Positions 1 through 33,791 of a DNA stretch of 34,671 bases are shown here, one piece after another. Under the pieces are notes generated by a model. The model saw only the letters and a list, made by a program, of their open reading frames with translations. It did not search any database and had not been told where the DNA came from. Source of the DNA: Spirochaetales bacterium (GTDB lineage Bacteria > Spirochaetota > Spirochaetia > SZUA-6 > JAFGRV01); assembly GCA_016937215.1 (NCBI GenBank), contig JAFGWI010000059.1, positions 1 through 34,671 on the forward strand. Reading direction: 5' to 3'. Position 1 is the stretch's first letter, and each line of letters opens with the position of its first letter. Both the position numbers and the translations under genes were made by a program.

Positions 1-59
1 GCGAAGCGGAGTTATGGAAAGCCTGGCCTGCTGTAATGAAATGAAAGCAGGAAACGCCC
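1..59 (-). repeat. Structured repeat, copy E (cut by window edge)
   Basis: Read on the minus strand this begins gggcgtttcc, has a 6-bp stem (51-46 with 32-27, cctgct/agcagg), then ccaggct and ctccgcttcgc before the window edge. The order and the unpaired motifs match the other copies at 2506-2666, 9527-9680, 18882-19064 and 33586-33791, while the stem sequence differs. Only the 5' third is visible. Confidence 0.7.
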
Positions 60-2505: not shown

Positions 2506-2666
2506 GGGCGTTGCCCTGAGCCGAAGCTCCACTTCGGTTCAGGGCCGGGCTTTACGTGACTCCGGCTTTCGCCTCCGAAGGTTTTGGGCCTGAGATTGTC
2601 AGGCCCAAAACGCTTTGGCCTAAAGGTTTTGAAAAACCTTTAGGCCATCACTCCAATCCCTAACGC
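2506..2666 (+). repeat. Structured repeat, copy A
   Basis: 161 nt starting gggcgttgcc and ending caatccctaacgc. The ends can pair (gcgtt with aacgc). Inside are a first hairpin (ctgagccgaag with cttcggttcag), the conserved ggccgggct, the conserved ctccgaagg, an 11-bp hairpin (2582-2592 with 2600-2610), a conserved cgctttgg and a 14-bp hairpin (2617-2630 with 2633-2646). It starts 42 nt behind the oxidoreductase stop codon, in the same direction. The unpaired motifs match copy B at 9527-9680 almost base for base while the hairpin arms do not. Confidence 0.9.
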
Positions 2667-2925: not shown

Positions 2926-4560
2926 ATGAAAAGAATAGTGTGTCTTTTTCTGTTATTCACCATTGGCCTTTCTTCAGCTTTTTCCGAAGAAGTAACCATA
3001 GCTGTGGGTGATCAATTTCGAGATACCGATGGAAATCTGGTCCAGGCCCATGGCGGCGGAATTCTAAAATACGATGGCTATTATTACTGGTTTGGCGAAA
3101 ACCGCTCGGGTGATAATCTTGTGGCCTGCTATCGTTCCCGCAACTTCAAGGATTGGGAATTCCGCAATAATGTACTCAGGCGGTCCTTTCATTCGGAACT
3201 CCAAACAGCCAATATTGAACGCCCCAAGGTGATTTATAATCCCTCCACCGGGAAATTCATCATGTGGGCCCATAAAGAAATGCAAAGCGATTACGGCCAG
3301 GCCAGGGCCTGTGTGGCTGTCTGCGATAGGATCGACGGCAATTATACCTGGCTTCGAAGTTTCAGGCCATTGAACCATATGTCCCGGGACTGCACATTGT
3401 TTGTGGACGACAATGGCCGGGCCTATTTTATTTCGGCAGCCAACGAAAACTACGATCTACATATATATCGTCTTACTGCCGATTTTCTGGATGTCGAGGC
3501 CCTGCTCTATAACTTCGACGGTTTCCACCGTGAAGCCCCGGCCATTTTCAAACACCAGGGAACCTATTTTCTTGTGACTTCCGGCGCCACTGGCTGGGAC
3601 CCCAACCAAGGACAATATGCAACAGCTACCAGTCTTTCCGGGCCCTGGTCAGGATGGAGGAACATTGGAAATAGCACGACTTTCCAGTCCCAGCCCACTT
3701 ATATTCAGCCCATAACCGGGAGTGAGGGAACATCCTACCTTTATATGGGTGATCGCTGGGCCGGTGCCTGGGACGGGCCTGTGAACGATTCCCGCTATGT
3801 CTGGCTTCCAATCTGTGTTACCTCTTCCAACAGCATCACTCTTCCCTATTCCAATGGCATTACCTTGAATGCTGAAACCGGTCTTTTATTGAACGGAATG
3901 GTGGTAAAGGAGAATAACAAAAGCGTGATTTACCTTAATGACACAGCTGAGGGAAATGGTCTGAATAACTTTGACTATGCGGGTGACTGGAGTTACGGCG
4001 CTGAGACCAATGCCTACGAAGGTGATAATCACTGGAGCGGCGATGCTAATGAGTATTATGAAGTGCGTTTTAAGGGAATACAAATCGAGCTCTATGGAGG
4101 AAAGGCCTCCAATCATGGTATGGCTGCTGTTTCGGTTGACGCTTCGGCTGAAACCATGGTGGATTTTTATGCATCAAGCCGATCAGATAAGGCCCTGCTT
4201 TATACCAGTCCGCTTCTTGCCTATGGAAACCACAGTCTTAAGGTGAGGGTTACAGCCAGTAAAAACAGCAATTCCGGAGGAACGGCGATTACCGCTGATA
4301 TGGTGAAAATCACAGTTTCTGACGGAAGCACCGAGACGCCCTCTCCCAGTCCCGAACCCACGCCAATCGTAAAAGCGGGTGATGTTAATTCAGACGGCCA
4401 GGTGAATATTGTTGATGCCCTTTTGGTGGCGCAATATTACGTGGGGCTTTTGGAAAGCATTAATTTTGAAGCCGCGGATGTGAATCGCGATAATACTGTG
4501 AATATAGTTGATGCCCTTCTTATTGCCAGGGCTTATGTGGGGCTTGAGAATATAGAATAA
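2926..4560 (+). CDS. Secreted GH43 (subfamily 24-like) exo-beta-1,3-galactanase with C-terminal dockerin
   Basis: A 544-residue secreted enzyme. Residues 1-20 are a signal peptide (cleavage near AFS-EE). The GH43 five-bladed propeller spans about 25-315, with QAHGGGILKYDGYYYWFGE at 40-58. Glu98 (NIERPKV), Glu203 (HREAPAIF) and Gln254 or Gln256 (FQSQPTYI) have nearly the spacing of Glu102, Glu208 and Gln263 of the fungal galactanase Pc1,3Gal43A, where a Gln replaces the usual catalytic Asp base. A galactose-binding-like carbohydrate module follows (about 320-450), then a Pro/Thr linker and a type I dockerin (about 474-535) with two Ca-binding repeats. The likely job is removing galactose units from beta-1,3-galactan side chains of arabinogalactan. 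An ATG at 2914 is also open, but only 2926 has a spaced GGAG and begins a proper signal peptide. Confidence 0.85.
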   Translation: MKRIVCLFLLFTIGLSSAFSEEVTIAVGDQFRDTDGNLVQAHGGGILKYDGYYYWFGENRSGDNLVACYRSRNFKDWEFRNNVLRRSFHSELQTANIERPKVIYNPSTGKFIMWAHKEMQSDYGQARACVAVCDRIDGNYTWLRSFRPLNHMSRDCTLFVDDNGRAYFISAANENYDLHIYRLTADFLDVEALLYNFDGFHREAPAIFKHQGTYFLVTSGATGWDPNQGQYATATSLSGPWSGWRNIGNSTTFQSQPTYIQPITGSEGTSYLYMGDRWAGAWDGPVNDSRYVWLPICVTSSNSITLPYSNGITLNAETGLLLNGMVVKENNKSVIYLNDTAEGNGLNNFDYAGDWSYGAETNAYEGDNHWSGDANEYYEVRFKGIQIELYGGKASNHGMAAVSVDASAETMVDFYASSRSDKALLYTSPLLAYGNHSLKVRVTASKNSNSGGTAITADMVKITVSDGSTETPSPSPEPTPIVKAGDVNSDGQVNIVDALLVAQYYVGLLESINFEAADVNRDNTVNIVDALLIARAYVGLENIE

Positions 4561-9526: not shown

Positions 9527-9680
9527 GGGCGTTGCCTGCCGCCCGGGGGCTTGGCAGGCCGGGCTCTCTGCCACTTCGGCTATGGCCTCCGAAGGTTTTT
9601 GTCCTGAATCTATCAGGACAAAAACGCTTTGGAAGACGGGTTTTGAAAAACCCGTCTTCCATGGCGCCGATCCCTAACGC
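9527..9680 (+). repeat. Structured repeat, copy B
   Basis: 154 nt starting gggcgttgcc and ending gatccctaacgc, 16 nt behind the zwf stop and in the same direction. The first stem is tgcc/ggca followed by ggccgggct. Then come acttcggct, ctccgaagg, a 12-bp hairpin (9596-9607 with 9613-9624), cgcttt and a 14-bp hairpin (9631-9644 with 9647-9660). All arms differ from copy A while remaining complementary. It may also serve as a terminator between the convergent zwf and hypF genes. Confidence 0.9.
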
Positions 9681-18881: not shown

Positions 18882-19064
18882 GCGTTAAGGATTGGAAGGG
18901 GCCACGCCTTTTTTTCAAAAAAGGCGAAGGCAACAAAAAGGCGGCGTTTTTTTAGCCGCCTTTTTGTTCGGAGCGTTAGCGGAGCCCTGCAAAGCCTGAC
19001 CCCTGAAGGTTGTTGCTGTCCTGTGTTCAGGGTATTTATAAAAAGCCCTTCAGGGGGAACGCCC
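18882..19064 (-). repeat. Structured repeat, copy C
   Basis: Read on the minus strand: gggcgttccc, a 10-bp first stem (19056-19047 with 19009-19000, cccctgaagg/ccttcagggg), then tcaggct, gctccga, a 13-bp hairpin (18967-18955 with 18945-18933), a 10-bp hairpin (18926-18917 with 18914-18905), and the end caatccttaacgc. It starts 9 nt behind the stop of the gene at 19074-19694, in the same direction. The arms are unrelated to those of copies A and B. The rest of the gap to tcdA (18689-18881) holds no recognisable gene. Confidence 0.88.
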
Positions 19065-31172: not shown

Positions 31173-33143
31173 TTATAAATCCACCAATCCCACATAGTAC
31201 TGGGCAATCAGCAATGCATCAACGATATTTATCAGATTATCTTTGTTCACATCAGCGGCATTTTCATTAAAACTGCTGGTAAGCGGAATTTTCACGTAAA
31301 ATTGGGCCACCAAAAGGGCATCCACAATATTCACGGCCAAATCGCTGTTAGCATCTCCCAGTAAAAATTCAGGATCTACTGTTGGGCTCGGTGTTTCTGT
31401 GGGCGTGGGATTGCTGTTTCCGTAATATTCAGAAATATTTGTATTGGATGAATGTTTTCCCAGAGGGATTTCATGATCCAGACCGATAAAGGCGCCTGAT
31501 GAATTTTGCCATAACGCGGGTTTAACAATGGCGTACTTGGCTGTGTCCAGTTCATAATCGGCTGTGACAATACCGCCGGTATCATGGGAATCGGGATTAT
31601 AGCACCAGAAGGTGAAGTTCAGGTCATTGGCTTCTATAAAATCGGCTAGTAATTCCATCCATTTTTTGTTGTCTCCTCCCAATTTTCCACCCCATTCTCC
31701 GATCAAAATAGGCGTGGTGTTCGATTCAACAAGATAGAACCAGTTAGGCCCCCAGGCCTCCTGGGCCAGGCTTTGGTAAGTAAAATTGTCTTTAAACCAG
31801 GGTTGAACATAAAGGTCAGGGCCATAGTCGTGAGGAGAGTAGACCACTTGCTTGCTCTGGGCACCCAGGTCAACAGGATATTTACCGGCTTCCCGAAGAT
31901 TTCCGCCCCACCAGTTGCAATAATATTGATATTTGTCGTTGGAGGAATAATCAGAACCTTCCATAGGGGTGCATTCTATGCCTTCGACCAGAATCAGTAG
32001 ATTGGGATTGATGGATAGTATGGCCTGGGCAATTTGCTCTGCCGCGTGGGGCCAGTTATTGGAATCTGATGAACCATCCCATTTGGCTGTTCCATTGGGG
32101 CCCAACCAGGATTGGCCGTGTGGTTCGTTGTAAAGATCAACCGCGATAACCGTGTCATTGTCCTTGTAACGGTTGACAAGCCATTTCCATCCGTTAATCA
32201 AATCGTTCATGGTGTACCTGGAATTAAACCAAAGGGCCGGACGATCGTTATTGCCAAGGGCGTGCATGTCCAGTATCAGCTTTAGCCCGATTTCCTGGCA
32301 GTATTCAAGGGTTTTGTCCAAGAGCCCAAGGCTTGAAATCTGGTCGATGTCAGGATTCACTAAGCCATTGATGAACTGAACTTGGGGGCCGCCGCCATTT
32401 TTCCAGTCTAGCACAATCTCCAGACTTAAGGGAAGACGGATGACATTAAAGCCCAGTTTTGTGAGCATATCAAAGGTTTCTTTCCAGTTGACCGACTGTA
32501 AACCGCCTAATCCCAATGGATTGGTTTCAAAGCCGAACCAATTGATTCCCGTGAGTCGTACATGATTACCCTGAGCATCAACAATCCGGCCGCCTGAGCT
32601 ATGGAGCCAGTCATCGTCTTTGGTTGGAGGCTCTGTTGGTTCAGGCGGCGGCGGTGGTGTGCTGCCGAAAATCATGGTAGTACCTATATGGGCGCTCACA
32701 CGGTTGTGGACTTGGTAATCGGTGTAGCTGGGTTCAAAGCTGTAGTCGTTGCTTTGGATATAATTGCCGTGATGGAGTTTCTCCACGCGCAACTGGATTT
32801 CTCCTGTGTTTTCGCCGGGAGCGAGGCTGCCGGCGCTGGAAGTAAAGCCTACTTCTAGATATTCATCATAAAAACTGCCTTTGATAGCAGCATTTCCCAT
32901 GGCCGCGTAATCAATACTCAATTGGGATTCATCATAGCCTTCGGCGGAAAAATAATAGCGAATCCTTAGTTGGGAGAGATTGATGCTGGAAGTTCCGGTA
33001 TTGTTCACAATAAATCGGGGTTTCAAGCGGTGGATAACAGCATCGCTTTGGGCACACTGGTATTCCACAGTGACCTCCTGGGCATTCAGAGTGAGCACGC
33101 AGGAAAGAATGGTAAAAGTAAAAATCTGGACTTTTTTAAACAT
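31173..33143 (-). CDS. Secreted CBM3-GH5-dockerin cellulase
   Basis: A 656-residue secreted endoglucanase. The signal peptide covers about 1-21 (cut near LNA-QE). A family 3 carbohydrate-binding module spans about 23-160, with LKPRFIVNNTGTSSINLSQL, then RIRYYFS, then NYIQSNDYSFEPS. A Pro/Glu/Thr linker follows (163-178). The GH5 catalytic domain is at about 180-545: the acid/base Glu340 is in DLYNEPHG and the nucleophile Glu483 in LIGEWGG, with DMHALG and YSPHDYGP in the expected places. A Pro/Thr linker leads to a C-terminal dockerin (about 594-653) whose repeats read NIVDALLVAQFYV and NIVDALLIAQYYVGL. It should cleave cellulose or related beta-1,4-glucans. Of two adjacent ATGs the inner (33143) has AAGGAG at the better distance. 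Confidence 0.95.
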   Translation of the reverse strand: MFKKVQIFTFTILSCVLTLNAQEVTVEYQCAQSDAVIHRLKPRFIVNNTGTSSINLSQLRIRYYFSAEGYDESQLSIDYAAMGNAAIKGSFYDEYLEVGFTSSAGSLAPGENTGEIQLRVEKLHHGNYIQSNDYSFEPSYTDYQVHNRVSAHIGTTMIFGSTPPPPPEPTEPPTKDDDWLHSSGGRIVDAQGNHVRLTGINWFGFETNPLGLGGLQSVNWKETFDMLTKLGFNVIRLPLSLEIVLDWKNGGGPQVQFINGLVNPDIDQISSLGLLDKTLEYCQEIGLKLILDMHALGNNDRPALWFNSRYTMNDLINGWKWLVNRYKDNDTVIAVDLYNEPHGQSWLGPNGTAKWDGSSDSNNWPHAAEQIAQAILSINPNLLILVEGIECTPMEGSDYSSNDKYQYYCNWWGGNLREAGKYPVDLGAQSKQVVYSPHDYGPDLYVQPWFKDNFTYQSLAQEAWGPNWFYLVESNTTPILIGEWGGKLGGDNKKWMELLADFIEANDLNFTFWCYNPDSHDTGGIVTADYELDTAKYAIVKPALWQNSSGAFIGLDHEIPLGKHSSNTNISEYYGNSNPTPTETPSPTVDPEFLLGDANSDLAVNIVDALLVAQFYVKIPLTSSFNENAADVNKDNLINIVDALLIAQYYVGLVDL

Positions 33144-33207
33144 CATGTCTCCTTTTTGACCTGTCCGGTTAAAAAATATTTGTATTTGTTTAGCTCCTAT
33201 GCTTTTT

Positions 33208-33230
33208 GGGCGTTACCTGATAAGCCCATA
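33208..33230 (+). repeat. Possible 5' fragment of the structured repeat (F)
   Basis: tttttgggcgttacctg matches the 5' ends of the other copies, including the T-run before gggcgtt, but no first stem, ggcc-gggct or 3' end follows. It is probably a decayed or interrupted copy. Confidence 0.4.
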
Positions 33231-33585: not shown

Positions 33586-33791
33586 GCGTTAGGGATCGTA
33601 CCGGAAACCCCGCAGCCCGGAGATCAAAAATCGAAGATATCGCGACACTTTTATATTTTTCCTGTTGTGTGATGTTCCGGGCGAGGAGTTGAAGGGGAGA
33701 GCCCGGGCCCGGCTTTGCCGTTTTACTGGGTTCTTTCCGATAACTTTTAAAAGCATTGGAAATAAAAATTCCTCAAAGCCGGGTAACGCCC
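33586..33791 (-). repeat. Structured repeat, copy D (long-loop variant)
   Basis: On the minus strand it runs from gggcgttacc to gatccctaacgc, 206 nt. The first stem ccggctttg/caaagccgg (33709-33717 with 33774-33782) closes a 56-nt loop and is followed by gcccgggct. The two inner hairpins of copies A-C are replaced by a looser region with a short cccgg/ccggg pairing. It lies about 170 nt behind the response regulator stop, in the same sense. Confidence 0.75.

Follow-up and report, generated by a model that had tools for sequence, protein, structure and literature searches.

The closest described systems are the REP/BIME repeats, of which the REPs are 20-40 nt long, carry a GTAG foot and lie beside a RAYT (TnpA-REP) gene (PMC3733652, PMC6006769), and the CGTC-tagged palindromic repeats, which are present in Bacteroidetes and Spirochaetes apparently without a dedicated transposase (PMC3733652). 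The repeats analysed here, from the draft genome of a spirochaete, resemble the REP/BIME sequences and their RAYT partners in that they are dispersed, intergenic and hairpin-forming, reach a high copy number in some genomes, are patchy between relatives and leave no target duplication. They differ from the REPs by a length of about 150 nt, by five or six stems, by the absence of a GTAG-type foot and by a position that is not beside Y1 genes, many of their hosts being devoid of Y1. With the CGTC-tagged repeats they have in common the host groups and the apparent lack of a dedicated transposase, but the latter are single short hairpins (PMC3733652). The MITEs and the IS200-type non-autonomous elements are likewise small, non-coding and mobile; unlike them, the present element lacks long terminal inverted repeats and target duplications, and we found no related autonomous copy.

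The attC recombination sites of integrons have conserved ends, with a GTTAGG-like box at one of them, and a folded strand that varies in sequence while its structure is conserved. The element displays these same properties, but its polarity is reversed (5' GTT...AAC 3' instead of AAC...GTT), it forms no cassette arrays, and its copies stand singly between ordinary genes, in both orientations. The reading we favour, and consider probable, makes these repeats a non-autonomous mobile DNA element defined by its structure, of which the folded strand and not the sequence is conserved, and which has been amplified in the spirochaete.

Anatomy of the element and its copies in the window

The window, that is the whole stretch of 34,671 nt that was analysed, corresponds to one entire contig (C256) of a draft genome of 5.09 Mb in 335 contigs, 88% complete. 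The five copies located by an initial annotation, made from the letters of the window, are all confirmed by the sequence (Table 1), and a sixth, truncated copy is present as well; the annotation was right and fell short of the full extent. The intact allele that matches this remnant, CCTGATAAGCCC...GGGCTTTCAGG, is found among the genome-wide pattern matches.

In the main class of the spirochaete genome, the consensus begins with GG-GCGTT (P1), followed by the SL1 hairpin, CGGGCT, a variable P3 arm, a CTCCG..CTCCGA box and HP2; the 3' part consists of CGCTTTGG, HP3 around TTTTTGAAAAA, the second P3 arm, CCAATCCCT and the AACGC that closes P1. The GGG of CGGGCT pairs with a CCC near the element end to form P2. 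This order is constant within the class in an alignment of 27 copies, and the shared order of parts reported by the initial annotation is supported. Three features had escaped it: the variable long-range P3, the short P2 (GGG/CCC), and the terminal pairs, which co-vary in rare copies. The termini of the family are GGGCGTT...CCCTAACGC; in the other hosts both ends, SL1 and CGGGCT are kept and the inner hairpins are different. The usual length is about 150 nt, with compact copies of 60-90 nt in viral contigs.

The rare co-varied terminal stems are GGGGCTT...AAGCC (L030), GGGCCTT...AAGGC (L508), GGAGGTT...AACCC (L545) and GGACGTT...AACGT (L073). The copy carried by the p74 plasmid of Leptospira biflexa (L549, around 3990-4060) has the variant ends GGGCGCC...GGGCGC; its neighbours are the genes for an exonuclease V gamma and for a hydrolase, and, its host being cultivable, is convenient for laboratory work.

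In the window, the scaffold of copy B is that of copy A (CTCCGAAGG, CGCTTTGG, TTTTGAAAAA), with different SL1, HP2 and HP3 stems. The P2 of copy C presents a coupled change, CAGGCT with ATCCTT against CGGGCT with ATCCCT, and this joint replacement by AGG and CCT is shared with L471 (Fisher p = 5e-4, on few cases). Copy D belongs to another internal class, of the ACTCCTCGCCCGG...CTGCGGGG type, like L014; its DNA fold closes P1 (the outer stem) and SL1, and its overall stability is not unusual (z = -0.9). The E-values of the covariance model (CM) are about 2e-32 or better for copies A and B, 3e-12 for C and 2e-6 for E. Neither an ORF or gene inside any copy nor an autonomous, gene-bearing copy was seen in a 469 kb sample of the genome and about 100 loci.

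Table 1. Copies of the element in the window, stems of copy A, and copies of the spirochaete genome that host a second repeat.
Feature	Position	Strand	Remarks
Copy A	2506-2666	+	complete; DNA fold z = -10.2; CM 139.9 bits; alignment and pair counts
Copy A, P1	2508-2512 with 2662-2666
Copy A, SL1	2513-2526 with 2532-2545
Copy A, P2	2547-2549/2551 with 2656/2658-2660
Copy A, P3	2556-2559 with 2648-2651
Copy A, HP2	2581-2593 with 2599-2611
Copy A, HP3	2616-2629 with 2634-2647
Copy B	9527-9680	+	complete; DNA fold z = -9.6; CM 152.4 bits
Copy C	18882-19064	-	complete; DNA fold z = -6.0; CM 57.6 bits over 18887-19001
Copy D	33586-33791	-	complete ends, long SL1; CM 11 bits
Copy E	1-59	-	5' part only, element cut by the contig end; CM 33.7 bits
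Sixth copy	33208-33227	+	truncated; GGGCGTTACCTGATAAGCCC, i.e. 5' end of a common allele with the first arm of its SL1
Host of second repeat, L542	6883	-	190-245 nt
Host of second repeat, L541	906	-	190-245 nt
Host of second repeat, L523	9373	-	190-245 nt

The stems of the element are also a nesting place for other palindromic repeats. Some copies enclose, at a single position, a second hairpin-rich repeat, GGTTGCATGGA..ATAGTGAATGC..GCATTCAC..GAGCAATAAATACG..TATTTATGACCAGC (Table 1). In Fibrobacter (L053), the copies at 236-403 and 2833-2966 are distinguished by the insertion of a CGTCATTCCGGGCTTGACCCGGAATCT palindrome into the loop of a hairpin, and a CGTCATTCC...GGAATC repeat that looks like a CGTC-tagged REP is nested inside an element hairpin; in L444 and L445 a CATCCCCGCGAAGGCGGGGATCTCC palindrome lies within SL1. 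As for the genes of the window, positions 31173-33146 of the minus strand encode a GH5 cellulase with CBM3 and type I dockerin domains, a composition that suggests a cellulosome-like machinery in this spirochaete.

Copy number, hosts and movement

A pattern made of both ends and the central GGCT box is found 177 times in the spirochaete genome, and its reversed form 0 times, a difference well beyond chance. The covariance model, built from the 27 aligned copies, gives 83 full or partial matches (E <= 0.01) in the 469 kb sample. Contigs already recognised as carrying copies make up part of this sample, and some of its matches are single hairpins or cut copies; a figure of several hundred for the whole genome, full and partial copies together, is therefore no more than a rough extrapolation. 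Many contigs of the draft end within copies (L511, L524, L526, L528, L529 and window positions 1-59, for example); the element therefore probably limits and fragments the assembly, and the copy counts are underestimates. The median identity between copies is 0.69 and exceeds 95% in only one pair among 121 copies. They are thus not the recent identical duplicates of one sequence that the initial annotation had named as contrary to its reading.

In the Spirochaetota, 12 of the 296 genomes searched carry the element, mostly at 1-2 copies; the phylum is identified by the Leptospiraceae genome of L110, which was searched as a member of the same phylum and yielded the same place and sequence in both searches. 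None was found in the relatives sampled from the family and order of the spirochaete, 60 by pattern and 20 by covariance model. On the other hand, Bacteroidota, Fibrobacter, Treponema, Leptospiraceae and others carry 1-8 copies each, in agreement with the relatives that the initial annotation had named in Bacteroidota and other spirochaetes, and 64 viral contigs carry the termini, one copy each. Neither Rfam 15 nor the open PMC subset of the literature yielded an earlier description of the family, sequence words giving primer coincidences only in the latter. The family is apparently unnamed, and is very widespread across several phyla and their phages.

Among the phages, the element follows terL in 13 sampled members of a divergent terminase family, but among the 80 relatives closest to the terL query set just 2 have it there; a conserved phage function after terL was rejected because most terL relatives lack the element. 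Its start is at most 18 nt from the terL stop codon in L221, L227, L280, L291, L292, L297, L303, L304, L306, L313 and L319, and its first base is the G of the terL TAG stop in L280, L291, L297, L313 and L324. In these divergent phages with one terminase-like family, the terL-adjacent element is followed by 200-600 nt with little coding.

The phages L284 and L287 carry an element after terS where six relatives have none, the latter having theirs across terS, on its opposite side; the empty site is a diverged intergenic stretch, so that it does not define the element ends to single-base precision. Presence and absence at orthologous sites, the general test of a mobile element, is thus observed both here and among the terL relatives. 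In the spirochaete genome, L137 and L156 are 97% identical copies with unrelated flanks, and L003 and L009 combine a common scaffold with wholly different stems. L239 and L299 are 98% identical up to mid-element and unrelated beyond. In the Fibrobacter orthologues L055, L458 and L447, single hairpins have been exchanged within otherwise conserved copies; six Fibrobacter loci show shared copies, breakpoints or diverged flanks, and no clean empty site. No chromosomal locus yielded an empty site clean enough to give the exact ends. Insertions are preceded by T-rich and followed by A/G-rich sequence, are otherwise unconserved, and in 295 flank pairs show direct flank matches (k = 2-9) at the expected level. 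The presence and absence in related phages, the 97%-identical copies at unrelated sites and the breakpoints inside copies together support mobility and recombination. Orthologous copies also persist at the same place between species (L036, L103, L109, L123), which could also mean a host function.

Could the repeats be neutral, spread by ectopic recombination and phage transfer without any dedicated enzyme? The breakpoints inside copies and the shuffled hairpins are what such a process would leave, and no enzyme was found, RVT_1 included. However, recombination between copies creates no new sites, and at least 177 copies, together with 97%-identical copies at unrelated flanks, need an insertion step. 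We therefore regard this explanation as unlikely.

Evidence for pairing at the DNA level

In the 27-copy alignment, 98.3% of the cells that the proposed structure pairs are standard pairs, against a shuffled mean of 79.1%, a figure inflated by the fact that the structure derives partly from the same alignment, which does not affect the contrast between double and single changes. The double-changed pair cells number 199, against 50.4 in the shuffles, and the covariation measure is 0.498 against 0.113; every pairing measure collapses when the partner is shifted by 1-3 columns. In an independent test, swapping arms between copies reduces the pairing from 6.9 to 5.0 bp in SL1, from 11.0 to 4.0 bp in HP2 and from 6.9 to 3.3 bp in HP3. 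The excess of double changes and the loss of pairing upon arm swaps bear out the strong covariation seen by the initial annotation, in which the arms are rewritten and yet paired.

From this covariation, the initial annotation had deduced a selected RNA or single-stranded DNA fold. A functional structured RNA, either a small RNA or a UTR element, selected for its fold, would agree with the strong covariation of a multi-branched fold, with the conservation of single-stranded boxes and with the single copy carried by each phage genome. Evidence to the contrary is that a G-U change concerns only 2 of 1079 cells, compared with the 199 double changes. Among 303 stems, detected from Watson-Crick seeds with G-T and A-C treated alike, there are 3265 Watson-Crick pairs, 11 G-T and 23 A-C; a G-T read from the other strand is an A-C, and G-T is not the commoner of the two. 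In the phage copies the G-T to A-C ratio is 8:3, numbers too small to speak against an RNA role in phages. Gene orientation is random, with 30 sense and 30 antisense copies in tandem gene pairs of the other hosts and 12 and 19 in the spirochaete genome; upstream, no promoter is conserved, the flanks being alike only in their T/A richness. No Rfam family among those scanned corresponds to the element (Rfam 15 gave no relevant match for the window, 18 loci and one compact copy). The scarcity of G-U cells, the random orientation and the unconserved upstream sequence argue for an inverted-repeat structure of the DNA and against a functional RNA, which we hold to be improbable; the pairing of the element acts at the DNA level, not at the RNA level.

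Two narrower possibilities were rejected. Each of the copies A-D follows a gene and shares its orientation, as a functional cis RNA would, but the 30:30 and 12:19 counts of the larger samples contradict it. Guide-like stems were discarded because the arms match their own flanks no more often than the flanks of other copies. A "skipping-rope" RNA near terminases was considered as a candidate identity, but no Rfam model matched.

Covariation alone does not imply a selected RNA, since template switching keeps DNA inverted repeats paired: stems are repaired arm to arm, with simultaneous double substitutions and without G-U steps (PMC8794818), and the process operates on bacterial quasipalindromes (PMC7202029). 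The hairpins described by Monttinen and Loytynoja (PMC8794818) resemble ours by their perfect stems, simultaneous double substitutions and few G-U intermediates; theirs are in RNA genes, whereas here the feature extends to almost all stems of a dispersed DNA element. The paired stems are probably maintained by arm-to-arm template switching and by recombination between copies. Selection on the DNA hairpin would leave a similar pattern, and the two are inseparable here.

Candidate enzymes and proposed mechanism

The initial annotation had also suggested a non-autonomous element moved by a Y1-type transposase. The mobile part, the better of its two proposals, is retained; the Y1 part is not. Mobilisation by a Y1 HUH transposase, as for a REP/RAYT-type or IS200/IS605-derived element, would fit dispersed intergenic hairpins without target duplication, and "atypical secondary structures" lie close to Y1 subclass 2.6 in Bacteroidetes (PMC6006769). 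The spirochaete genome has two Y1 genes, one of them with a copy about 150 bp downstream. However, 14 of 32 element-bearing genomes, some of them drafts or MAGs, have no Y1 match (E <= 0.001), none of 30 Y1 loci in 18 genomes has a complete element within 1.5 kb, and the GTAG or CGTC foot is absent from the element consensus. Furthermore, both spirochaete Y1 genes are flanked by a different repeat, GGTCTG(A/T)CCC, in 5 and 4 copies against 1 in the 469 kb background, which is apparently their own REP-type repeat. Y1/RAYT is thus rejected as a general partner, and movement of the element by such an enzyme appears improbable as well. The two spirochaete genes, RAYT-like and encoding 159 aa each, lie within the stretches 298-2681 of L032 (contig C114) and 951-2558 of L033 (contig C180); beside the Y1 gene of L410, TGTCCCGTTAGGGACA-type repeats were seen by eye.

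A reverse transcriptase (group II intron, retron or DGR) was discarded because the spirochaete genome, 88% complete, has no PF00078 match, and the 23S rRNA intervening-sequence protein PF05635 because none of 30 such genes is flanked by the element and the spirochaete genome has none. These four-helix genes, up to 12 per Bacteroidota genome among the 32 hosts searched, are unrelated to the element. It is very improbable that the element is a classic MITE, on whose short terminal inverted repeats a DDE transposase would act: the ends do form an inverted repeat, co-varied in a few copies, but it measures only 5 bp, it is rewritable, and no target-site duplication of 2-9 accompanies it in the 295 flank pairs.

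In the mobile DNA element, about 150 nt, or 60 nt in the compact phage form, is framed by the mutually pairing ends GGGCGTT...AACGC, which enclose a side hairpin together with at least one inner hairpin. In the mechanism we propose, phages would carry the element between hosts, where an enzyme acting in trans would recognise either the single strand in its folded form or the short constant boxes, and would insert the element, without target duplication, in T-rich/A-rich intergenic sites. The stems would then be rewritten by mutation followed by arm-to-arm copying during replication (template switching), and whole hairpins would be exchanged between copies via the conserved boxes. The combination of template switching and hairpin exchange would let the stems diverge fully while the scaffold and the pairing stay. 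The constant boxes of the scaffold need some selection or a recent common descent. The observations that weigh against the mobile element also include that a mobilising enzyme was not found in the hosts searched, and that the copies hold no ORF. We tentatively raise the further possibility that the repeats represent a new class of mobile DNA, read by the shape of a folded single strand, in which all stems, including the closing one, are rewritable, and which is moved across phyla and phages by a kind of enzyme not yet tied to such elements.

In conclusion, the family provides well over a hundred copies in one genome in which the same stems have been repeatedly rewritten. It allows a direct test of a long-debated question, namely whether the double substitutions seen in stems result from selection by way of G-U intermediates or from template switching, and it warns against taking covariation by itself as proof of a functional RNA. 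Should there be a dedicated enzyme, it would be a DNA recombinase that reads structure and has a very broad range of hosts.
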